45,267 nt of DNA from a virus: the IMG/VR virus record IMGVR_UViG_3300032287_000432, positions 1-45,267 of that record; one strand, 5' to 3'. Positions 20,901 to 32,636 of the stretch are shown here, in pieces. A program made the translations under genes and the position numbers. Positions within the stretch are counted from its first letter, which is position 1; every line of letters begins with the position of its first letter. Under the pieces are notes generated by a model that was given only the letters and a program-made list of their open reading frames with translations, was not told the origin of the DNA and did no database searches.

Positions 20901-20929
20901 ATTATACCATCCTTTTTAAATATTAACAA
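20901..20929 (-). promoter_or_regulatory. Leaderless sigma70-type promoter for DUF3310-nrdJ
   Basis: On the minus strand, TTGTTA (20929-20924) and TATAAT (20906-20901) are separated by 17 bases, with TG just before the -10 box (TGGTATAAT). The start codon of the DUF3310 gene begins six bases after the -10 box, so transcription should start at or next to the ATG. The -35 box is inside the end of the exonuclease gene. Confidence 0.65.
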
Positions 20930-21662
20930 GCTTTTGTTGGCCTTTTGGCTTAAGATTTGTACCATCTCTAAACCAATTACCACAAGCACGACATTGGTAT
21001 CGTTGATACTTACTTGTTGTAGTTATATTAAAGCCACGTTTTTGTACGTTTTTAGACTGGCATGTAGGACAACAGTCAGTTGTACCATTAAGGACATTGT
21101 TATTAAGATGATTCTTAATCCAAGGTTTAAAACGTTCATAGACTTTTTCTAGAAGAATAACATCGTTCTTGTTATACTCTTCCATTTTCTTCCAAGCTTT
21201 AGGTATGCCTGCCATACACTGTACCCATAACTCATGCCCACTATGTTCAGTCTTTTTACCTAAACCTAGGGACTGTGCTACATAGTCTAGTTTGTTAGAT
21301 ACAAATCTAAATCTACCTTTAGCTACAGTAAGTAAATCAATTTCTTTAAAAGGTGCTGGTGGAAACATACCATGCAATAAGAACTCTTTATTAAGAGAAG
21401 GTATATCAAAACGTTTACCATTGTAGTGTATAACTGCATCTGCTTCGTCAAGAAGCTTATGGATACCAGTTAACATTTTCTTATCACCAGACTTTTTAAC
21501 AGAGTCAAACATCATCTTATTGTCACCTAACCATTTAGCTGCGTAACACATGACATAAGAACTTTCTTGTAACTGATTGATACCAATGTTTTGATCCCAA
21601 ATACCCCATACATGGGCTACGTTAGGAGCCATTTCAATATCTAATAGTAATATTTTACTCAT
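20916..21662 (-). CDS. DnaQ-like 3'-5' exonuclease with zinc ribbon
   Basis: A 248-residue protein. Residues 1 to about 180 are an RNase H-fold exonuclease with D8/E10 (LLLDIEMAP), HYNGKRFD (D86), EIDLL near 108, and Y163-N-K-N-D167 as the last metal ligand. It is most like the YprB/PolB-related exonucleases of phages. Residues 198-227 add a zinc ribbon (C198-x2-C201, C224-x2-C227). The start at 21662 overlaps the HNH gene stop as ATGA and has AAAGGA upstream. An in-frame start 48 bases further upstream is less likely. It probably acts in replication, repair or host DNA breakdown. Confidence 0.8.
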   Translation of the reverse strand: MSKILLLDIEMAPNVAHVWGIWDQNIGINQLQESSYVMCYAAKWLGDNKMMFDSVKKSGDKKMLTGIHKLLDEADAVIHYNGKRFDIPSLNKEFLLHGMFPPAPFKEIDLLTVAKGRFRFVSNKLDYVAQSLGLGKKTEHSGHELWVQCMAGIPKAWKKMEEYNKNDVILLEKVYERFKPWIKNHLNNNVLNGTTDCCPTCQSKNVQKRGFNITTTSKYQRYQCRACGNWFRDGTNLKPKGQQKLVNI

Positions 21663-22015
21663 TTCTTTATCCTTTGTTTTTTCTCTTTTAGAGTTTTTTT
21701 GTCGTGGCATTCTTTACAGAGCACTTGCAAGTTATCTTTGGTACAATAAAGTCTTTCAATGAAATCATCCCAAGATGTAAACCCAACTTTAACATCAACC
21801 ACTGGTTTAATATGATCAACTTGAACTTGTTTAGCAGGGTACTCTTTTTTACAAGACTTGCACTTATAGTGCATACCCATACGTTTAGTAAGTTCGTTAA
21901 TCTTTTTACCAGTTTGTGCTTCTTTGAGCGTTTCGTATTTAGGAGGCCAACGTCTGTACCCACCTCGCAACACGGACGTAATAAAACCTTTGATTCTGCC
22001 ATCTGTCCACTCCAT
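21659..22015 (-). CDS. HNH endonuclease
   Basis: A 118-residue HNH protein. The amino part (DGRIKGFITSVLRGGYRRWPP) is common in phage HNH nucleases. The core has C52-x2-C55, D67-H68 (VQVDHIKPV), N95 and C100-x2-C103-H104 (LCKECHDKKT), that is, a zinc-bound beta-beta-alpha metal site with the catalytic His68. It could cut branched DNA in recombination or be a selfish endonuclease. It sits neatly in the early operon with ATGA and TAATG overlaps on both sides, which favours a phage housekeeping role. Confidence 0.85.
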   Translation of the reverse strand: MEWTDGRIKGFITSVLRGGYRRWPPKYETLKEAQTGKKINELTKRMGMHYKCKSCKKEYPAKQVQVDHIKPVVDVKVGFTSWDDFIERLYCTKDNLQVLCKECHDKKTLKEKKQRIKK

Positions 22016-22341
22016 TATAATGTAGGTTCTTTCTTATAAGTATCATCTATCTTAGGATTAGTAAGAAAGACATTAGCAGGGAATCTGCTTGTATCACCTT
22101 TGTACCATTGTATTACAACTTCGTCACCTTTGTGAGTATAACATGCTAGAAGACGTTCACCGTCAATCCTAGTAGCTACTGCAGTTAAAGGGTATAAACT
22201 TTTAAGTTCAGGTAAAACACAATCAATGTTTGAAATAGTTATAATTACATTTTGATTGTACCTGTAATGTAAATATTTATAAGCTTCAGCAATTACATTT
22301 GTACTTAAGCAAAATCCAATAACTAACAATAGTTTTTTCAT
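22015..22341 (-). CDS. Exported small protein with signal peptide
   Basis: A 108-residue protein starting MKKLLLVIGFCLSTNVIAEA, a classic Sec signal peptide with likely cleavage after the IAEA region. The mature part has two Cys (C42 and C67) that could form a disulfide in the periplasm, and beta-like segments (NVIITISN, GDEVVIQWY). No lipobox is evident. A phage early-region protein sent to the periplasm may act in superinfection exclusion or cell-envelope change, but this is a guess from location only. It overlaps the HNH start by one base (TAATG). Confidence 0.65.
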   Translation of the reverse strand: MKKLLLVIGFCLSTNVIAEAYKYLHYRYNQNVIITISNIDCVLPELKSLYPLTAVATRIDGERLLACYTHKGDEVVIQWYKGDTSRFPANVFLTNPKIDDTYKKEPTL

Positions 22342-22370
22342 GCTAGGTCTCCACGTGATGATAGTAGTAA

Positions 22371-22574
22371 TTACGGATACTTGACACGTTCATCAAGCAT
22401 TGCATTTGAGACCTTATAAGCCTGTTTAGCTAATTCTTTAGGGTCTTCTGACCATTGAGAATCAATCATTGCATGTAATGCTTCCATTGCAATGTAATCC
22501 CTAAGGTTCATACCAGTATAGATTTGTTTCTTGTTATCTTGACATGGGAATGCTGGTGAGTTTCCGTTACTCAT
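22371..22574 (-). CDS. Small phage protein with PAFPC motif, 67 aa
   Basis: The start at 22574 has a strong GAAGGAG ribosome binding site; an in-frame ATG 15 bases upstream does not. The product begins MSNGNSPAFPCQDNKKQ, then YTGMNLRDYIAMEALHAM and a charged helical end. This NPAFP...GMTLRDYFA pattern is very common in small phage early proteins of unknown function. There is no enzyme motif. Confidence 0.7.
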   Translation of the reverse strand: MSNGNSPAFPCQDNKKQIYTGMNLRDYIAMEALHAMIDSQWSEDPKELAKQAYKVSNAMLDERVKYP

Positions 22575-22625
22575 GTTACTCTCCTTCATAAATTAAAATC
22601 ATTAGAGCTACCCAGACAAGGATGA

Positions 22626-22820
22626 TCAATTTAATTGACCACCTTCCTCTTTAAATAAGTCTAACTCCTGTTCAACAGCATCTGTTGCAACTTCAAAGAC
22701 ACCCCTACGCACCAGTTCTTTGATAGCATAGTCCATTAAGAAGGCAGCCTCCTTAGGGTCTACATGAAACTCAAAGTCTAATGACCCATCTTTATTCTGT
22801 ACACAGTTTGATATAAGCAT
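22626..22820 (-). CDS. Small phage protein, 64 aa
   Basis: A 64-residue acidic protein (DGSLDFEFHVDPKEAAFLMD, then AIKELVRRGVFEV) resembling small phage proteins with a short beta hairpin and two helices. Its start lies inside the exonuclease gene (29-base overlap) with AAGGAAA some 14 bases upstream. The function is unknown. It is kept because it fills the interval between exonuclease and the next gene on the coding strand. Confidence 0.6.
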   Translation of the reverse strand: MLISNCVQNKDGSLDFEFHVDPKEAAFLMDYAIKELVRRGVFEVATDAVEQELDLFKEEGGQLN

Positions 22821-23466
22821 CTAACCAGTTTTCCTTTCCTTTTTGTCTAATCCAAAGAACCTGAGCATTCATTTTAAACTCTTCATCGTTACTATAAGCA
22901 TTCCTAACTGCGTCAAACAAATGTTGTTCTGTTTCACATTCAGCTAAGATTTTATCTGCTTTCTTAGTACCAATCTTTTCTATGCCTTTAATGTTATCAG
23001 ACCTATCACCCATAAGACATTGCTTATAAAAGTGTTTAAGTCCTTCAAATTCATTAACCTCACAGAATTCATTCTTAACAAAGTTAAAATGTTTACCAGG
23101 AATCATAAGAAGATCTTTATCTATAGAACAAATAATAGTATCATCTGTTTGATTTAACCCAAGTGCATCGTCAGCTTCCATACCATCAATAACTTCTGCA
23201 TTAAATGTTGCAATAAGATATTGACGAATAGGTTCTAACCAGAATGGTTTCTCTTTAGGACGGTGGGCTTTATACTCAGGGTATATACTATACCTAAAGT
23301 TATCTTTACCCGTTAAATAAAGATTATACTCAGAAGCTTCGGTACTAACTAGGATATGATCAACTAGATCTTCTGTCCTAGAGTACGCAAAGTCCTGAGC
23401 ATCATCATCTTGTAGCGTACAAGCAACCCTATACGCTACTATATCAGCATCAATAAGTGCTTTCAT
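22792..23466 (-). CDS. 5'-3' exonuclease (FEN-like, T7 gp6 type)
   Basis: A 224-residue flap/5'-exonuclease. Metal-binding acidic residues appear in order: D6 and D8 (ALIDADIVAYR), the YPEYKAHRP motif near 67-75, DGMEADDALG near 94-103, ICSIDKDLLMIPG near 111-122, and GDRSDNIKGIEKIG (helix-3-turn family motif) near 152-165. It would remove RNA primers and degrade DNA 5' ends in replication and recombination. It is directly downstream of the SSB-like gene (TAATG overlap), part of the replication operon. Confidence 0.85.
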   Translation of the reverse strand: MKALIDADIVAYRVACTLQDDDAQDFAYSRTEDLVDHILVSTEASEYNLYLTGKDNFRYSIYPEYKAHRPKEKPFWLEPIRQYLIATFNAEVIDGMEADDALGLNQTDDTIICSIDKDLLMIPGKHFNFVKNEFCEVNEFEGLKHFYKQCLMGDRSDNIKGIEKIGTKKADKILAECETEQHLFDAVRNAYSNDEEFKMNAQVLWIRQKGKENWLDAYIKLCTE

Positions 23467-23993
23467 TAGACTGGGATGTCATCCTCTAAGTCATCAAAGT
23501 TTACTTCTTTAGTAGGATTTGGATCTTTACTAAATACATAAGCTTCAAATTGTTTAGCTGTTGCAATAACTTCATCAACAGATTTACCTTGTCCTAGTAA
23601 CTCTACTGCAGTTGATAGAGATGATTGACGAATAATAAACACTTGTCGTGCAGCTCTTTCTTCTTTAGTTTCATAGTTACTTCCTGTTACTCTACCACCT
23701 GCTTGCGCAGTTGCTGGTTTACTTTGTGTAGCCACTGGTGCATCTCCTTCATTACCAATACCTGTCCAATCCCAAAACCCTTTGGCATTCTTAACAGTCG
23801 TTACATTAACAACCTCACCTTTAGCTAAACCTTTGATATGATTAAATACCGATGGGTTACTAAAAGACATAAGCTTTTTATTAGCTACTTGACCATTTTC
23901 AGTCTTGTAAGTTATCTCAATCTCTTGGTAAGATCTACCATTAGATGAAGCTTTAGTACTAGGTGTTCCAACATCAACAATATTAATTAGCAT
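23466..23993 (-). CDS. Single-stranded DNA-binding-like protein
   Basis: A 175-residue protein with an OB-fold-like first half (residues about 1-75: YQEIEITYKTENGQVANKKLM, FNHIKGLAKGEVVNVTTVK), a flexible Thr/Gln/Ala linker and a helical region. The acidic tail FDDLEDDIPV mimics the protein-interaction tip of SSB proteins. It likely coats single-stranded DNA and recruits the replication enzymes beside it. It overlaps the polymerase end by 11 bases and the exonuclease start by one. Confidence 0.7.
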   Translation of the reverse strand: MLINIVDVGTPSTKASSNGRSYQEIEITYKTENGQVANKKLMSFSNPSVFNHIKGLAKGEVVNVTTVKNAKGFWDWTGIGNEGDAPVATQSKPATAQAGGRVTGSNYETKEERAARQVFIIRQSSLSTAVELLGQGKSVDEVIATAKQFEAYVFSKDPNPTKEVNFDDLEDDIPV

Positions 23994-24807
23994 TTACTAT
24001 CTCCATGTTACCCCAATTAGGTCCAACTTGACATTCGACCCTCATAGGAAGATTAAATTCAACCCCAAATAACTTCTTAAAGTTAAGAGGGATGTCCGTA
24101 AAACAGTCATCAACTAACTTAACTATACTATTATTATCGCATAGTTTCTCATCAAAGTCAACTATAATCGAATCATGAACAGTGTTTATTAACTTAGTTC
24201 CTTCCACTTTCTTTAGTCTATTAGCTAGACTAACTCTTGCTATAGCCATCAAATCAGCACCGAGTCCTTGCACTGGATAGTTAAGGATTCGTGTGCGGGG
24301 CCATTTAGCTTTACCATATCTTATTTCTGGTTCATAATGATATACCCTCCCTGTAGGCATAGTTATCTTTCTATCTCTTTTAGCTTTCTCAACAATCTCT
24401 TTGTGCCAGGTATCAAGGCCACTATACTTTTTATAAAACTCATCAATGATGTTTTGCCAGAACGTTTCTTGTTTACTGGTATCAGTGAAGTTAGGATCAT
24501 TAGCATAACTATAAGCACTGCCACCATAGATGAGTCTGAAAACAAATGTCTTAGCAATGAGACGACTAGGTAAACCAAACCTAACCTGATTATCCGTGTG
24601 CTGATCTGTTCCATCCCATATCTCCTTAATAGCAGTTTTATCTTGTGATAGATAGGCTGCACATACCCATTCTAGTGCTTTAGCATCAGCTTGTAACAGC
24701 ATACCTACTCCCAAATAGTTGTTTAATTTCTCCATCAAAGTTTTGTAAGTTAGGTTTAGTTGACGATAGTCTACCTGTCTTAGCAACACATTGATTAAGG
24801 ACACCAT
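23983..24807 (-). CDS. Family-A DNA polymerase, palm/fingers part (second frame)
   Basis: A 274-residue frame holding the polymerase motifs. Motif A is LLQADAKALEWV (D41). Motif B is R82-L-I-A-K86-x3-F90-x3-Y94-G. Motif C is NTVHDSIIVDF (H211-D212-S213, with Ser where Glu is usual). Homology begins only near residue 33; earlier residues are the overlapping frame of the exonuclease half, so the listed ATG may not be used. It is the +1 continuation of the frame ending at 24686; together they cover one polymerase. A separate start (for example ATG at 24736) is possible but would leave motif A very near the amino end. Confidence 0.8.
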   Translation of the reverse strand: MVSLINVLLRQVDYRQLNLTYKTLMEKLNNYLGVGMLLQADAKALEWVCAAYLSQDKTAIKEIWDGTDQHTDNQVRFGLPSRLIAKTFVFRLIYGGSAYSYANDPNFTDTSKQETFWQNIIDEFYKKYSGLDTWHKEIVEKAKRDRKITMPTGRVYHYEPEIRYGKAKWPRTRILNYPVQGLGADLMAIARVSLANRLKKVEGTKLINTVHDSIIVDFDEKLCDNNSIVKLVDDCFTDIPLNFKKLFGVEFNLPMRVECQVGPNWGNMEIVNAN

Positions 24808-25855
24808 GTAGTGTACCTTCTTTCCAGTTCATAGTCTTGCGTAGTTCTACTAATCCTTCGTAGTATGCAGACAATCGTTTCTCTAATGTAGCTCTAGCTA
24901 AGATAAGTTCTATTAGTTCTTTAGCTTTCTTACTACCTTTAAGAGATCGTAATGTCTGTTCATCATTAGAAAAGAATCCTTCTTTCTCTAGTTCAGAACC
25001 TTTAAGAGGATTAATCATACGCTCAAACTCTATGACGTATTCTTTCCATTGGCTTTTTGGTAAGCCCGCTCTAGTGCCTGTTTTAAAAGTACCAATAACT
25101 TCTTGACGTCTGACTTTAATAGATCCCCCATAGAGAAGAGCACTAATATGTTCAGAGCTATTAGCATTAAACTCAGGAAGGTTATGGTAAGTGTAAAGAA
25201 TTGAATCAATACGTTCAATATCTTTTGTAGTTTCTTGCCCAAGCCTAACACACTCTGTTTCATTGAATTTAAGACCATTGTATTCCATCTCCTCTAATAT
25301 TAATAAGTCTTGGTTATGTAAACTAAGAAGTCTTTGCATCTGTTTTGTACCAGCCGCAAATTCTTCCATCTGTTTCTCATACACTTTTTGCGTTAACTGC
25401 AAATCTTGTGTGAGGTATTCTTCTAACAAGTCTTTAGGTATCTTGTCAGTATCTATTCCGTTCTTCCAATAATCAGTAGCAATGATATCAAGTTTACTAC
25501 CCAAAGCATAGCTGTCAGCAACGCCATTGAGACTTGGATAGGGATGTTGTTGGCCCGTAAGTATAAAATGAGCCAACTGACAATCCCAAATACGCTTATC
25601 CATAAAATTAATTCCATAGCGTCTTAACCAATGCAAGTCAAACTTAATGTTAAAGCCAACAAGAGTATCGTGACTGTTGATGCTTCTTTGTATAGCGTCA
25701 AGTCTTTCTCTGTTAGGACTTCCGCTATAATCAATATCATATAGGTAAGTGCCATCAGTACTATAGAGTCCAACATAACAAAGTTTATTCCTTTCATCAA
25801 ATGGATTGCCCTTATTGCTTATGGTTGTCTCAACATCTAAGATTAAGCTGCGCAA
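24686..25855 (-). CDS. Family-A DNA polymerase, exonuclease/thumb part (first frame)
   Basis: A 389-residue frame with TTG start (AAGGA upstream). The 3'-5' exonuclease has D7/E9 (LILDVETT), LVGFNIKFDLHW and YLTQDLQLT. The thumb follows, then the conserved TGRLSSTKPNLQNFDGEIKQLF stretch that in one-piece enzymes runs straight into motif A. After GSRY the frame ends in AVTS-stop, while motif A continues in the +1 frame. The switch is expected in the 11 bases at 24699-24709 (rare AGG codon present). This is either programmed frameshifting, a true split gene, or an assembly indel. Confidence 0.82.
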   Translation of the reverse strand: MRSLILDVETTISNKGNPFDERNKLCYVGLYSTDGTYLYDIDYSGSPNRERLDAIQRSINSHDTLVGFNIKFDLHWLRRYGINFMDKRIWDCQLAHFILTGQQHPYPSLNGVADSYALGSKLDIIATDYWKNGIDTDKIPKDLLEEYLTQDLQLTQKVYEKQMEEFAAGTKQMQRLLSLHNQDLLILEEMEYNGLKFNETECVRLGQETTKDIERIDSILYTYHNLPEFNANSSEHISALLYGGSIKVRRQEVIGTFKTGTRAGLPKSQWKEYVIEFERMINPLKGSELEKEGFFSNDEQTLRSLKGSKKAKELIELILARATLEKRLSAYYEGLVELRKTMNWKEGTLHGVLNQCVAKTGRLSSTKPNLQNFDGEIKQLFGSRYAVTS

Positions 25856-27272: not shown

Positions 27273-27503
27273 CTACAGGCCACAAAAGGCTTCTGTAAGT
27301 TTTTTACTATTATATTTATTTTCTTTATTGTAAGTCTTTCTTTCAGTTATATCCAGATACAAAGGCGTGAGCACAAAGTGATGCACGTCTTTGAGTCTGG
27401 TAATTTGTTGTAGATCTGCAGGAAGAAATGACCAAAGGTATTTAGCACGTAGTGCACCAGTAGAATCGTATTCTTCATATAACCAAGCGTCAGGTTGTTT
27501 CAT
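27273..27503 (-). CDS. Small phage protein, 76 aa
   Basis: A 76-residue protein between primase and helicase. It begins MKQPDAWLYEEYDSTGALRA and has FVLTPLYLDITERKTYNKE near the end. The start overlaps the primase stop by four bases (ATGA). The first part resembles small proteins of unknown role found in many T7-like and siphophage early regions that read (P)DAWLYE...TPLY. No catalytic motif is visible. Confidence 0.65.
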   Translation of the reverse strand: MKQPDAWLYEEYDSTGALRAKYLWSFLPADLQQITRLKDVHHFVLTPLYLDITERKTYNKENKYNSKKLTEAFCGL

Positions 27504-28192
27504 TGTTTATCCTTTATAATCAAATCAATATCGTGTGTACTATACTCTTTAGGATCTTTATCTGTAATAATAACATCAGCATTAATACCCTTTTGTTTTA
27601 AATTTCTAGACATTTTAACGGCATCAATTGCCTTATCCCTATCCAACCATATCCAAACCTTTTTAAAGCGTTCTAGGATAGTTTCTGTAAGTTTTAGAGG
27701 CATACTTGAACCCAGTAGAGGACACCCTGTGTAACTATTGTTAGCTTTGCTAACTTTTATTGCTGATAAAACATCTTCTACTACAATTATTGTATCACTG
27801 TTACCATAGAATAGCAAGGGTTTGTTTCCTTTAGACAAATACTTAGGCCCATCGTTAAAGTTTCTAGCTTGGTAATAGTGCGGTAAATATACAAGCACTA
27901 AAGCTTTTCTTGACGGACACCAAGTAATGTGGTAAGTCTCACAATCTTTACTTGTTATCTCGTATTGTAATAGCCATTGCATTGGTTCTTTAGGAATGTC
28001 AAGTACTAAATCTAAGTTTAAATCATTGGGACATTCTTCGTCGATTGTCAGCAATTTTCTGCGAACTCCTTCGATTGTGTTCTTAGACTTCCAATATTTA
28101 CATCCAAAACAAAACAAATGATCGTCATATTCTGCCAAGTTATCTTTGCTACCACAACTTGGACAAGGTATATGACCAATGAATTTACTCAT
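27500..28192 (-). CDS. Primase, zinc-ribbon plus TOPRIM (T7 gp4 primase type)
   Basis: A 230-residue DNA primase. An amino-terminal zinc ribbon C10-x2-C13 and C28-x2-C31 (HIPCPSCGSKD, LFCFGC) reads the template. A TOPRIM core has E139 (IIVVEDVLSAIK) and D184/D186 (IWLDRDKA), the metal-binding residues for RNA primer synthesis. It corresponds to the primase half of T7 gp4 without the helicase, which is a separate gene 227 bases downstream. It has AAGGA before ATG. It is the first leftward gene after the pqqA-like gene and may have its own promoter in the shared AT-rich interval. Confidence 0.85.
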   Translation of the reverse strand: MSKFIGHIPCPSCGSKDNLAEYDDHLFCFGCKYWKSKNTIEGVRRKLLTIDEECPNDLNLDLVLDIPKEPMQWLLQYEITSKDCETYHITWCPSRKALVLVYLPHYYQARNFNDGPKYLSKGNKPLLFYGNSDTIIVVEDVLSAIKVSKANNSYTGCPLLGSSMPLKLTETILERFKKVWIWLDRDKAIDAVKMSRNLKQKGINADVIITDKDPKEYSTHDIDLIIKDKQ

Positions 28193-28218: not shown

Positions 28219-28249
28219 TTGACACACGACATAATTGTAAAACTATAGT
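28219..28249 (+). promoter_or_regulatory. Candidate promoter for the pqqA-like gene
   Basis: TTGACA at 28219-28224 and TATAGT at 28244-28249 are separated by 19 bases; a better TATAAT at 28249-28254 lies 24 bases away. The spacing is not ideal, so strength or control by an activator is uncertain. It points rightward, away from the primase gene, toward the tiny gene at 28302. Confidence 0.4.
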
Positions 28250-28282
28250 ATAATATTATCATAGTATAAATTTATATACTAT
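28245..28282. promoter_or_regulatory. Operator-like repeats before the pqqA-like gene
   Basis: The octamer ATAGTATA occurs at 28245-28252 and 28261-28268 (16 bases apart, same face of the helix). Its inverse TATACTAT is at 28275-28282, giving an 8-bp inverted repeat around a six-base centre. The group overlaps the -10 region and leader of the pqqA-like gene and could bind a regulator or form a small RNA hairpin. Confidence 0.45.
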
Positions 28283-28301
28283 AACTAAAAGGAGCTACAC
28301 T

Positions 28302-28373
28302 ATGTGGACTAAACCAGCAGCGACAGAAATGCGTTTCGGTTTCGAAGTTACAATGTATGTAATGAATAAGTAA
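28302..28373 (+). CDS. pqqA: PqqA-like PQQ precursor peptide, 23 aa
   Basis: A complete 23-residue gene on the opposite strand to all neighbours. It starts MWTKPAATEMR, followed by FGFEVTMYVMNK. It has the PqqA landmarks: amino-terminal MW-K-PA, the G-F-E-V-T-M-Y core with E15 and Y19 spaced E-x3-Y, and normal family length. In PQQ synthesis PqqD presents PqqA to the radical-SAM enzyme PqqE, which links that Glu and Tyr; the two residues become the cofactor. AAAAGGAG at 28287-28294 is a near-perfect ribosome binding site seven bases before ATG. No other pqq gene is present, so host PqqB-E would be needed. It is likely a metabolic booster for methanol/alcohol dehydrogenase; a decoy substrate is the alternative. 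Confidence 0.9.
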   Translation: MWTKPAATEMRFGFEVTMYVMNK

Positions 28374-28386
28374 TTACATACCGTAT

Positions 28387-28419
28387 GAATGCAGGCACCC
28401 GTGGGGATGCCCTGCGTTC
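28387..28419. terminator. Hairpin between pqqA-like gene and convergent gene
   Basis: GAATGCAGG-CA and TGCCCTGCGTTC pair over about 11 bases with one bulge, extended by CCC/GGG inside. It begins 13 bases after the pqqA-like stop and its other arm touches the stop codon of the leftward 78-aa gene. There is no clean T run on either strand, so it may be a rho-assisted or processing hairpin. Its first 14 bases recur at 32455. Confidence 0.6.
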
Positions 28420-28655
28420 TACGGCTTATAATTCTTAATCACTTCACCTGTGGACTTGTCAAGTTCATACTCAGCTAATTGTTTTTTATCATGATGATGT
28501 TGTACAATATCTGCAATGATTTCTACATTAGCTAATTCTTCTTCAGTTAAAGTAATGCCTTGTTTTTTAAAGATACGATCCCAATTATCTTCACCTTCTT
28601 TAGATAGTCTTTTATTAATAAGTCTATCACCAGTAATATCATTCCTTGAAGCCAT
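28419..28655 (-). CDS. Small phage protein, 78 aa
   Basis: A 78-residue charged protein beginning MASRNDITGDRLINK, with EDNWDRIFKKQG near residue 22 and a charged helical end. The ASRNDITGD...NWDRIF pattern is typical of small phage early proteins without known function. It overlaps the zinc protein upstream by 17 bases, and its stop touches the hairpin described at 28387. Confidence 0.65.
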   Translation of the reverse strand: MASRNDITGDRLINKRLSKEGEDNWDRIFKKQGITLTEEELANVEIIADIVQHHHDKKQLAEYELDKSTGEVIKNYKP

Positions 28656-29191: not shown

Positions 29192-29938
29192 TTATAGACT
29201 CCTATAGTAATTATAAATTGCTTTTGAATATTTGTCAAGCGTAGTTCCTTCTAATCCTGGGGCAGTATTAATTTCGAATACAAAGAATTTATTATCAATG
29301 ACTCTGTGTCCGATGTCTACTGCACCAAAATCTAACCCTAATAATTTCACAGCCTTGCAGGCTGATGATAGTAGTTCTTCGGGCGGGGCAATTTCTGCCC
29401 GTGCATACACCCATCCATTTGCATGGTTACGAATGCCTGTGCCGTGGGCGGCACCATTACGCTTACGCTTCATTTGAACATCGAGTACTTGTCCACGGAA
29501 TACATGGACGCGATACTCATATTTATGTCGCGTAGCGACAGTGTATAGCGGTGCATTGATAAGGTTACTAATAGTGTTAGCAATAACAATACCACGACCA
29601 CTATGTCCTGTAGTTGTAGTGCGACAATAAATATCTTTACCATTAGCAAGTTCATATATCTTTTGTTTACTAGTAGACCATATAGGAATATCAGTAAAAC
29701 CATTCTGAGATAGTACATTGAATGTTGTAAGTTTATCACAAGCTAATTGTATAGAGTTAGGTTTGTTTAAGTCTTGTTCCATCCACCTAAAATGTGGTGG
29801 TGCAGAGTTACCCCAGTTAACTATTACATCTTTGCGTTTAGCATTGTACGATGGTGAAACCCTTAGAGTACCAAGGGTTCTAGCCAATCGTTTAGCAGAC
29901 ACACTACCTAACTTGTAAGGGAATATTTTAAGACTCAT
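29192..29938 (-). CDS. ATP-grasp ligase-like enzyme
   Basis: A 248-residue compact ATP-grasp protein. Visible landmarks are DKLTTFNVLSQNG (about 68-80), a glycine-rich loop GHSGRGIVIA (111-120), EYRVHVFRGQVLDVQMKRK (141-159) and the metal/ATP end LDFGAVDIG...FVFEINTAPGLEGTTLDKY (202-237), with E222 and N224 as likely Mg ligands. Such enzymes join a carboxylate to an amine via acyl phosphate. It overlaps the amidotransferase gene by four bases and belongs with it and the amidoligase in one cassette. The substrate is unknown. Confidence 0.8.
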   Translation of the reverse strand: MSLKIFPYKLGSVSAKRLARTLGTLRVSPSYNAKRKDVIVNWGNSAPPHFRWMEQDLNKPNSIQLACDKLTTFNVLSQNGFTDIPIWSTSKQKIYELANGKDIYCRTTTTGHSGRGIVIANTISNLINAPLYTVATRHKYEYRVHVFRGQVLDVQMKRKRNGAAHGTGIRNHANGWVYARAEIAPPEELLSSACKAVKLLGLDFGAVDIGHRVIDNKFFVFEINTAPGLEGTTLDKYSKAIYNYYRSL

Positions 29939-30846
29939 TTAGATTTACCTTTTAATAAAGATGGTGATGCATAGTTATGGTATGCAGGTACACCTACTGG
30001 ATCAATAGAGTCATCTTCAAAGTCATCAACAAAAGATAGAGAATGATAAGGAACATTATAAAGAAAGCCACTGTTACCTTTATAATCTTCATGCATTAGA
30101 TCACATGTAAAGTCTTTGTTAACTGCAACGATTTCACATAGCTCTCCAGTCTCATATACTTTAAGGGTAGCAGGGTCAGCTGTATCTTCTAGTAACTCTA
30201 CCATTGCACCTGTTGCTATTACTTTAGGTTTAGGTATAGCTATAGGTTTACGCCAATTACCATAATCATACACATCATTCTTCCATGATGTAGTTACTGG
30301 TGCAACATAAGGTTTGTAACTGTTGTTACTATACCATATGCCATCATCCCATTCACCCTTGTGTTCATTCATAATCTTATGGTTGCCATGTCTATCTAAG
30401 AAGATAAGCTTGCTGTAACCAATACGAGTTTCAAGAAGATCAATCATAGGGTCTTGGAATAAAGCTAGGTTACCCCATTTGTTTACTAACGGTTGAAGTA
30501 TTTGTTCATTGAAGTGTATAGTGTCAGACAAAGTCTTATCACCATCAAGCCCACTAATAATACCGTTGTGCACAAAAGCCAGACTGCTATTGACAGCAAA
30601 TGGGTGACAATTTGTTTTATTAATTTCACCATGAGTTTTAATCCTAAAATGAATAACAACTTTTTTATCTTGATGTTTCTTATACGCATTGTAAAAGGAA
30701 TCAAAACTAAAGAAACCTTTCTTAATATTTAATTGTTTGTCATCAGCAAACATAAAGCCTGCGCCATCTGGATTAGATGAATAACATTCTTGTAGTGTTG
30801 CTTTACTGATAATCTTTTCTTCTGGTTTATAGATTGCAATACACAT
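29935..30846 (-). CDS. Class II glutamine amidotransferase-like enzyme
   Basis: A 303-residue protein with an N-terminal nucleophile glutaminase domain. C2 becomes the amino-terminal catalytic Cys after Met removal. N25-PDGAGF31, H66-FR68, T71-HG73, N79-CHPF83 and H93-NG95 are the usual substrate and oxyanion residues. It would release ammonia from glutamine for a partner ligase. The last 100 residues are a separate beta-rich extension (ATGAMVELLEDTADPAT, SGFLYNVPYHSLSFVDD) of unknown role. It is linked by one- and four-base overlaps to the amidoligase and ATP-grasp genes. Confidence 0.85.
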   Translation of the reverse strand: MCIAIYKPEEKIISKATLQECYSSNPDGAGFMFADDKQLNIKKGFFSFDSFYNAYKKHQDKKVVIHFRIKTHGEINKTNCHPFAVNSSLAFVHNGIISGLDGDKTLSDTIHFNEQILQPLVNKWGNLALFQDPMIDLLETRIGYSKLIFLDRHGNHKIMNEHKGEWDDGIWYSNNSYKPYVAPVTTSWKNDVYDYGNWRKPIAIPKPKVIATGAMVELLEDTADPATLKVYETGELCEIVAVNKDFTCDLMHEDYKGNSGFLYNVPYHSLSFVDDFEDDSIDPVGVPAYHNYASPSLLKGKSK

Positions 30847-32420
30847 TATACAAACTCCTTTAAATGATAACTAAGTTCGGGGAACATACGCTTACGATTA
30901 GATAACCAACCCATGAATGCTTCGTAATGAGTTTGTTTCTTGAGGGATTCATTAGATTGAGCAGGCATACAATAGTCAACCAATGCTTGTACAAATTGCA
31001 AGCGAGATGCAAACTCTTTGTAGTTCATTGGTGTAGCAAACAACCTAACTTCTACTGTGTTTTGATTGTTTAGATTGAGAGCATTGTATCTGTCACCACC
31101 ATTCTTGTTACGCCATGCATATGTAACATTGCGTCCACTATCCATACGAGCGTATTGATTGTCTGTACGACCTGCTATAAATGCAATGAATAGTTTATTT
31201 TCTGGACGATTAAGAAACTCAGTCATCTTGCCAAGAGTCAACTGGCTCAAGGGTTTCCGACTGATGTGAACATGCATACCTACATTCTTTTCTATCTTAA
31301 GATCAGGTGGTATGTTGTCATAGAATTTCTTAAAGATATCTAGATGTATATCTAATGTAGCTGGGCATGTAACAATCTCAAAGCCATTACGAATAGAACC
31401 ATCAGACTTCATAAGTGCATGGCCATGCATTAATTTACCTACTGCAAGTTGTGCACGATTACGATTGTTAGTTTCGTATTCTAATTCACAGCCAAGGTAA
31501 ACAGTATTAGGTCTAACCCTAGTAGCTTTGAACTTGAGCATACTTTCTACTCGTGTTGAATAGTTATGTATTTTAAATGAGGCATCAAGACAATGATGAC
31601 ACACACCATCAATACATAGTTCAGATACAGATTCGTTACCACATTGTGTACATGTTACAATGTCTACTTCGTTACGATTCCATACATGACCATCGTGATA
31701 GAATTGATCAGGCTTAAGCCATATGTCATGTCGTTCATTAAATGTATATCCATAAATAACTGGATCAGTTAATTTATGTATTTCAGTCCATTGAGTAGAG
31801 CCAAGTCTCATGCGTCGTTGACTACCTTCAACATAATACTCAGTTGTTAAGAAGTCTTGATAGTATGCATAGTTTGGAATATCTTTGTTGTCAAGATAAT
31901 CTTTAACCCATGTATCAGGCATAACAGCATCTTCAATTTCTAGTGGATTACTAGCTATGTCAACTGCTTCTCGTAACATATGCTCAGTTACCCAACTAGT
32001 ACGCATAGCTGGAGAGCGTAGTCGTTTACGCAATGCACCAAAGAAACCTTTCTTTAGTGTACCATTTTGATTATAATATGCAGGTGCATTTACTTTGTAA
32101 TACAACGCATCAATAATAGTTGATGCATTTAGTCTATAGCTTGCACTTGTTACAAGACCTGTTTCATGAGCAGCATCACGATAGAAGTTATAAACACTTA
32201 ATCGTCTGCTGCCATTAGCTTCATCATTGGTATAGAATTGTAACACACGCATATCTTTATACCAAAGGGTAGATAGTGTGTAGGTTTTACGAACAGTTGC
32301 TTGTTGTTCATAGTCCCAACCGTTGTCTTCTTTAGTCCAGTAAGTTTGTCGTATGTCTGGATGTAACCATCCGAACATATTAAACCTACTATTAAAGTCA
32401 TTAAAACTATATGGTTTCAT
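30846..32420 (-). CDS. Amidoligase-family enzyme with zinc ribbon
   Basis: A 524-residue protein. The amino half (1-250) is unassigned. A zinc ribbon follows: C257-x2-C260, C269, C274-x2-C277. The end is an amidoligase (glutamine-synthetase/GCS-like fold): YLGCELEYE (308-316), MKSDGSIRNGFEIVTCPA (337-354), NVGMHVHISR (379-388; H383 and H385) and LNLNNQNTVEVRLFATP (448-464; E457 and R459). These acidic and His residues bind Mg-ATP in the family. It makes an amide bond between a carboxylate and an amine. With the GAT-II and ATP-grasp genes it forms a three-enzyme peptide/amide-building set. It has AAAGGA before ATG. Confidence 0.82.
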   Translation of the reverse strand: MKPYSFNDFNSRFNMFGWLHPDIRQTYWTKEDNGWDYEQQATVRKTYTLSTLWYKDMRVLQFYTNDEANGSRRLSVYNFYRDAAHETGLVTSASYRLNASTIIDALYYKVNAPAYYNQNGTLKKGFFGALRKRLRSPAMRTSWVTEHMLREAVDIASNPLEIEDAVMPDTWVKDYLDNKDIPNYAYYQDFLTTEYYVEGSQRRMRLGSTQWTEIHKLTDPVIYGYTFNERHDIWLKPDQFYHDGHVWNRNEVDIVTCTQCGNESVSELCIDGVCHHCLDASFKIHNYSTRVESMLKFKATRVRPNTVYLGCELEYETNNRNRAQLAVGKLMHGHALMKSDGSIRNGFEIVTCPATLDIHLDIFKKFYDNIPPDLKIEKNVGMHVHISRKPLSQLTLGKMTEFLNRPENKLFIAFIAGRTDNQYARMDSGRNVTYAWRNKNGGDRYNALNLNNQNTVEVRLFATPMNYKEFASRLQFVQALVDYCMPAQSNESLKKQTHYEAFMGWLSNRKRMFPELSYHLKEFV

Positions 32421-32482: not shown

Positions 32483-32636
32483 ATAGGCTTGAAACAAGTT
32501 GATACAAGCATACACCCATAAATACAATAGCCATTGTTAACCCAAGTAAACAGATACCTATGATATATCTATCAACTGGAGTATATTTATGTTTATACTT
32601 TGCAATACCACGAAAGTCTTCTTCATGATTACACAT
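32481..32636 (-). CDS. Small single-pass membrane protein, 51 aa
   Basis: It begins MCNHEEDFRGIAKYKHKY and has one hydrophobic segment (about residues 25-48, IIGICLLGLTMAIVFMGVCLY), so it is probably an inner-membrane protein with a charged amino tail in the cytoplasm. A strong AAGGAG precedes the ATG, and the start overlaps the previous gene by eight bases. Small early membrane proteins in phages often affect host envelope or exclude other phages, but nothing here proves it. Confidence 0.65.
   Translation of the reverse strand: MCNHEEDFRGIAKYKHKYTPVDRYIIGICLLGLTMAIVFMGVCLYQLVSSL

Follow-up and report, generated by a model that had tools for sequence, protein, structure and literature searches.

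Why would a phage carry a gene for a 23-residue precursor peptide, and none of the genes that process it? The question is raised by a small open reading frame in a virus record 45,267 bases long, the whole of which is called here the window. The peptide in question, PqqA, contains a Glu and a Tyr in E-x3-Y spacing that are later fused into the cofactor pyrroloquinoline quinone (PQQ); one PqqA molecule is consumed for each PQQ made.

A complete pqqA gene and its surroundings

The reading frame is a genuine, full-length, phage-borne PqqA. The peptide carries E15 and Y19 in the E-x3-Y spacing, and so meets the residue criterion for membership. It scores 42.4 bits against Pfam PF08042 (E 6.4e-11, cut-off 21.1), in an alignment that spans the whole model (profile positions 1-19/19), and 40.4 bits against the equivalog NCBIfam TIGR02107 (cut-off 20); both curated cut-offs are exceeded about 2-fold. 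A loose PqqA motif scan of shuffled relatives (487 kb) gave 0 matches. A chance ORF is ruled out by the profile scores, by conservation (below) and by this shuffled-sequence control. No family in PHROGs v4 matches PqqA, and sequence comparison found no PqqA-like chain among solved structures.

A tblastn search of the window with Acinetobacter queries, which are able to detect the Methylophilaceae homologues at 40-65% identity, gave no homologue of pqqB, pqqC, pqqD or pqqE; the criterion for a PQQ biosynthesis operon, with pqqB, C, D and E beside pqqA, is not fulfilled. This says nothing against identity as PqqA, because in hosts, too, pqqA usually stands alone. An earlier note, made from the sequence alone, had claimed a complete 23-aa pqqA-like gene here, with a good ribosome-binding site and with Glu15 and Tyr19 properly spaced; this held, on the ORF coordinates, the sequence and the two profiles. 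Its claim that the genome has no other pqq gene held for pqqB-E, and the PF08042 search that it proposed, now run, matched over the full model.

Table 1. Features of the pqqA region, in window coordinates
Feature	Position	Strand	Description	Basis
DNA primase	27500..28192	-	divergent neighbour that anchors the slot	ORF scan
Candidate sigma-70-type promoter	28226..28254	+	ACGACA-17-TATAAT	weak, barely exceeds chance
Ribosome-binding site of pqqA	28287..28294	+	AAAAGGAG; AGGAG at 28290-28294, 7 nt 5' of the start	sequence
pqqA	28302..28373	+	23-aa pyrroloquinoline quinone precursor peptide MWTKPAATEMRFGFEVTMYVMNK; Glu15 and Tyr19; ATG at 28302, last base of TAA at 28373	profile matches, conservation
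Hairpin 3' of pqqA	28381..28424	+	strong; no T-run	fold z-score -4.8

The gene stands alone, with the divergent primase gene on one side and a convergent small ORF (28419-28655) on the other (Table 1). An RBS-like motif lies 5' of pqqA in 146 of 151 distinct viral copies. Promoter-like sites in the region number 4, against 1.6 expected. The hairpin extends into the convergent ORF and is retained in 10 close relatives despite changes in the stem sequence; more broadly, a downstream hairpin of <= -9 kcal/mol accompanies 85/151 viral copies as against 14/151 shuffled ones. It could be a terminator or an mRNA-stabilising element.

The phage and its host

The window carries genes for terminase, portal, head, helicase (DnaB), primase, a split DNA polymerase and ribonucleotide reductase, together with amidoligase-like and glutaminyl-transferase-like genes. 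Its DnaB is 62-63% identical, and its primase 42-44% identical, to those of MEP401 and MEP402, both isolated with an OM43 Methylophilales strain as host. As the replication genes resemble those of MEP401/MEP402, the phage probably infects Methylophilaceae; this relatedness supports the methylotroph host that had been claimed for it. The claim that it is lytic is compatible with the absence of an integrase among the ORFs scanned, an absence that may fit a lytic phage without proving one. A prophage reading was rejected: the DnaB has no close relative in 121 Methylophilaceae genomes, which yielded only weak matches resembling host DnaB. No tRNA gene was found in the window.

Elsewhere in the window, amidoligase-like, glutamine amidotransferase-like and S6 glutaminyl-transferase-like genes stand consecutively on the minus strand (29192-32420), possibly forming a cassette that modifies peptides or the cell wall; genes for amidoligase and GATase have been reported from MEP401-type phages too (PMC10580990). 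The DNA polymerase is spread over several ORFs at 20916-25855 (minus strand), and an HNH endonuclease gene lies at 21659-22015.

Conservation and selection in relatives

Relatives in IMG/VR were collected through the neighbouring primase, not through pqqA. The ten closest (primase 93-98% identity) all encode the same peptide, and all ten place the gene in the same slot, 110-112 nt from the primase and divergent from it. With the set widened to primase identity >=44%, pqqA was within the fetched stretch at 35 of 48 loci; at five (L303, L304, L306, L319 and L323) the slot is empty and the gene lies elsewhere in the record; the remaining 8 were left out as unjudgeable, because the contig was short or the match lay at its end. 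The gene is present in 40/40 resolvable relatives, among which there are near-duplicate contigs, so that the 40 do not all count as independent events. Whole-record scans found pqqA in 5/5 contigs anchored on TerL (G001-G005, 34-48 kb) and in none of three fragments of 20-34 kb. Five loci at primase identity <=37% showed no pqqA within the fetched stretch, and MW202796, a complete genome whose host is unknown (TerL 75%, primase 48% identity), is without it. One primase-anchored record, L324 (IMGVR_UViG_3300011115_000265), has two copies, at 32544-32600 and 45380-45436.

Differences among the pqqA copies of the closest relatives, summed over pairs of distinct copies, comprise 45 synonymous and 0 non-synonymous changes; across 22 distinct sequences, pN/pS is 0.076. 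It is a conserved gene, subject to purifying selection. The earlier note had proposed a search of related phage contigs for pqqA beside the primase, which bore it out in 10/10 of the closest relatives, and had named three outcomes that would refute it (an unconserved frame, equal synonymous and non-synonymous rates, no profile match); none was obtained.

Breadth among phages

A tblastn search of 50,697 phage records returned twelve: nine Methylophilaceae phages, a single metagenomic phage and two entries titled 'Acinetobacter phage'. PqqA queries of Pseudomonas and Klebsiella type returned the same twelve and added none; across the three query types, these 50,697 records yielded nothing further from phages of other PQQ-making hosts. 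The gene is present in 9/9 cultured Methylophilaceae phages found: P19250A, Venkman, MEP301, MEP401, MEP402 and four Melnitz phages. These are the ones identifiable in the collection; MEP431-434 and HIM624-A are in the taxonomy, and whether the collection holds them was not determined. Among annotated phage records, pqqA is confined to Methylophilaceae phages, bar the one metagenomic phage and mislabelled Acinetobacter pieces. As to the latter, CAKLQF020000010.1 and CAKLQH020000055.1 (L007) are titled 'Acinetobacter phage MD-2021a'; L007, the only one of the two opened in detail, contains a bacterial pqqABCDE operon and ppk, and looks like a piece of chromosome under a wrong label.

In the cultured-phage records that were opened, pqqA is unannotated or lies under an antisense ORF. 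Hypothetical proteins are annotated antisense to it in Melnitz-1 and MW202481 (L003 2461-2556 and L004 2067-2195, both minus strand), and the strand annotated there is probably the wrong one.

DNA-pattern scans of IMG/VR for pqqA gave at least 120 stretches with each of two patterns. Such scans favour the sequence searched for, and prevalence was taken instead from the sets anchored on primase, TerL and YqaJ. Both E15 and Y19 are intact in 120/120 viral copies retrieved by a pattern that stops short of E15, and no pqqB-E was found in 249 viral loci. Venkman-like loci with recombinase identity >=62% have pqqA in 31 of 36 cases; two of the rest are truncated at a contig end, and in L408-L410 the expected slot lacks the gene, which is missing from the L410 record (25.8 kb) altogether. 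More distant Venkman-related loci (recombinase <62%) have no pqqA. The position of the gene in the genome varies between phages.

We judge it likely, taken as a whole, that pqqA is a signature, near-universal auxiliary gene of Methylophilaceae phages, across unrelated groups, that it was missed since it falls below the size limits of gene finders, and that the phage, like its host, increases the dose of this one consumable peptide. The remark that the gene would often be missed by annotation is borne out in the records opened; the occurrence is far wider than could be told from the single phage then in view.

Host copies of pqqA

The window peptide is identical to 26 host-genome copies, including one of Methylophilus methylotrophus (L233); the DNA matches the best host copy at 66/72 positions, with a longest exact match of 48 nt. 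All 121 Methylophilaceae genomes searched have pqqA, in 1-12 copies (median 4), with more than one copy in 118; in the wider class it occurs in 40/276 genomes, mostly in 1-3 copies. Of 120 host copies sampled, 91 have no pqqBCDE in the fetched locus (<=8 kb, some loci cut short), and Methylophilaceae are described as having multiple pqqA and usually a single pqqBCDE (PMC4109929). For Methylovorus MP688, a later paper (PMC11317620) names PqqA availability as rate-determining, on the authority of Ge 2015. An older study, cited in the same paper, reported pqqA dispensable in Methylobacterium extorquens, with orphan copies left out of the test. Five marine or uncultured Methylophilaceae-type genomes (L191, L194, L261, L271 and L279) carry a tandem pqqA pair with a spacing of about 200 bp and slight differences between the two peptides.

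What the phage peptide might do

The gene meets the sequence-based criterion for an auxiliary metabolic gene (a host-like metabolic gene in a bona fide phage genome, kept by selection), because phage genes are present, selection is purifying and host PqqA has the identical sequence. As to function, the simplest reading of a peptide without processing genes is substrate top-up, though expression, flux and fitness effects are all inferred. In the infected cell, the phage would produce extra PqqA, the precursor that is consumed; PqqD and PqqE of the host, with the rest of its pathway, would turn this into PQQ; and the PQQ supply would keep methanol dehydrogenase, and hence cell energy and carbon, going while the phage replicates. 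The phage has the peptide and no processing genes, and therefore depends on host PqqD/PqqE; its peptide is expected to be a competent substrate because it is identical to host PqqA. That phage PqqA sustains PQQ-dependent methanol oxidation is in our judgement the likely role, and the host copy number (median 4, versus mostly 1-3 in other pqqA-bearing genomes of the class) supports it. This booster, claimed at the outset, remains the best reading and remains an inference: expression, host processing, raised PQQ and benefit to the phage are all inferred, with no expression or PQQ data. Against it stand MW202796 and L410, which lack the gene, L408 and L409, which lack it in the expected slot, the dispensability of pqqA reported for Methylobacterium extorquens, and the fact that PqqA limitation in infected OM43 or LD28 hosts is unestablished.

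Of the alternatives, the one that survives best supposes that the peptide, or the PQQ made from it, has a use apart from methanol dehydrogenase, be it in lanthanide handling, in protection against oxidants or in a different PQQ-dependent alcohol dehydrogenase. In Methylorubrum extorquens, lanthanide supply affects two orphan pqqA genes, and it has been proposed that PqqA could be part of an alternative lanthanide uptake system (PMC11317620). However, PQQ in these hosts is known to serve mainly in methanol oxidation, and the window ORFs scanned give no hint of lanthanide uptake; we regard this use as unlikely.

A second alternative makes the peptide a decoy, with which the phage floods host PqqD/PqqE, blocks or misdirects PQQ synthesis and shuts down host metabolism. 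Phages often disable host pathways, and an excess of one substrate could unbalance a pathway. But the peptide is identical to the host substrate, one would expect E15 or Y19 to have been lost from a decoy, and hosts themselves carry multiple pqqA copies. A decoy role has very little to commend it, because both reactive residues are retained in every copy tested.

A third holds that the gene was picked up from the host as a passenger, or as a recombination or attachment sequence, and leaves the host pathway unaffected. The closeness of phage and host DNA noted above speaks for it; against it, synonymous sites diverge while the peptide is fixed, where decay would be expected, the gene has its own ribosome-binding site, its position varies between phages and the ORFs scanned include no integrase, so that this too is most improbable. 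Misclassified host chromosome, for which L007 gives a precedent, is all but excluded for the viral contigs in general, and refuted for the window and the cultured phages, by the terminase, portal, head, DnaB, primase and polymerase genes of the window, by the absence of pqqB-E from all 249 viral loci, and by the presence of pqqA in isolated, sequenced phages.

Relation to known systems, and significance

Whether phage pqqA had been reported was left open by the earlier note; it had, in 2020, in the Lake Baikal viral population VP_266 (PMC7678222), and virus-encoded pqqA is also listed in a reservoir study (PMC13188868). VP_266 is likewise a Methylophilaceae virus encoding PqqA, for which a booster interpretation was also proposed; it differs in being T4-like, in encoding methanol dehydrogenase too and in being a single metagenomic population, whereas the window phage is a small relative of MEP401/MEP402 with no methanol dehydrogenase among its identified ORFs. 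A keyword search of open-licence PMC found pqqA unmentioned in the Venkman, MEP301, MEP401/402 and Melnitz papers; the 2017 P19250A paper lies outside that coverage and might mention the gene. What is new, then, is not phage pqqA itself but its near-universal occurrence in methylophages, its spread over unrelated phage groups, its conservation and its absence from annotation.

The cultured phages encode a PqqA 77-96% identical to that of the window, at other genomic positions and unannotated or antisense-overlaid. Host Methylophilaceae pqqA (PF08042/TIGR02107) shares the identical 23-aa peptide and commonly stands alone; the window copy differs in being phage-borne without pqqB-E, and at synonymous sites. 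Cyanophage psbA is likewise a host-like gene for a fast-consumed component that supports host energy metabolism; unlike auxiliary genes of that type, the window gene yields a consumed cofactor-precursor peptide, not an enzyme or photosystem protein.

Auxiliary genes of <30 codons are being overlooked, and this one could serve as a simple marker of the host for metagenomic phages. In coasts and lakes, Methylophilaceae (OM43, LD28) are abundant consumers of methanol; that their phages have this gene in common suggests that PQQ supply is a bottleneck during infection.
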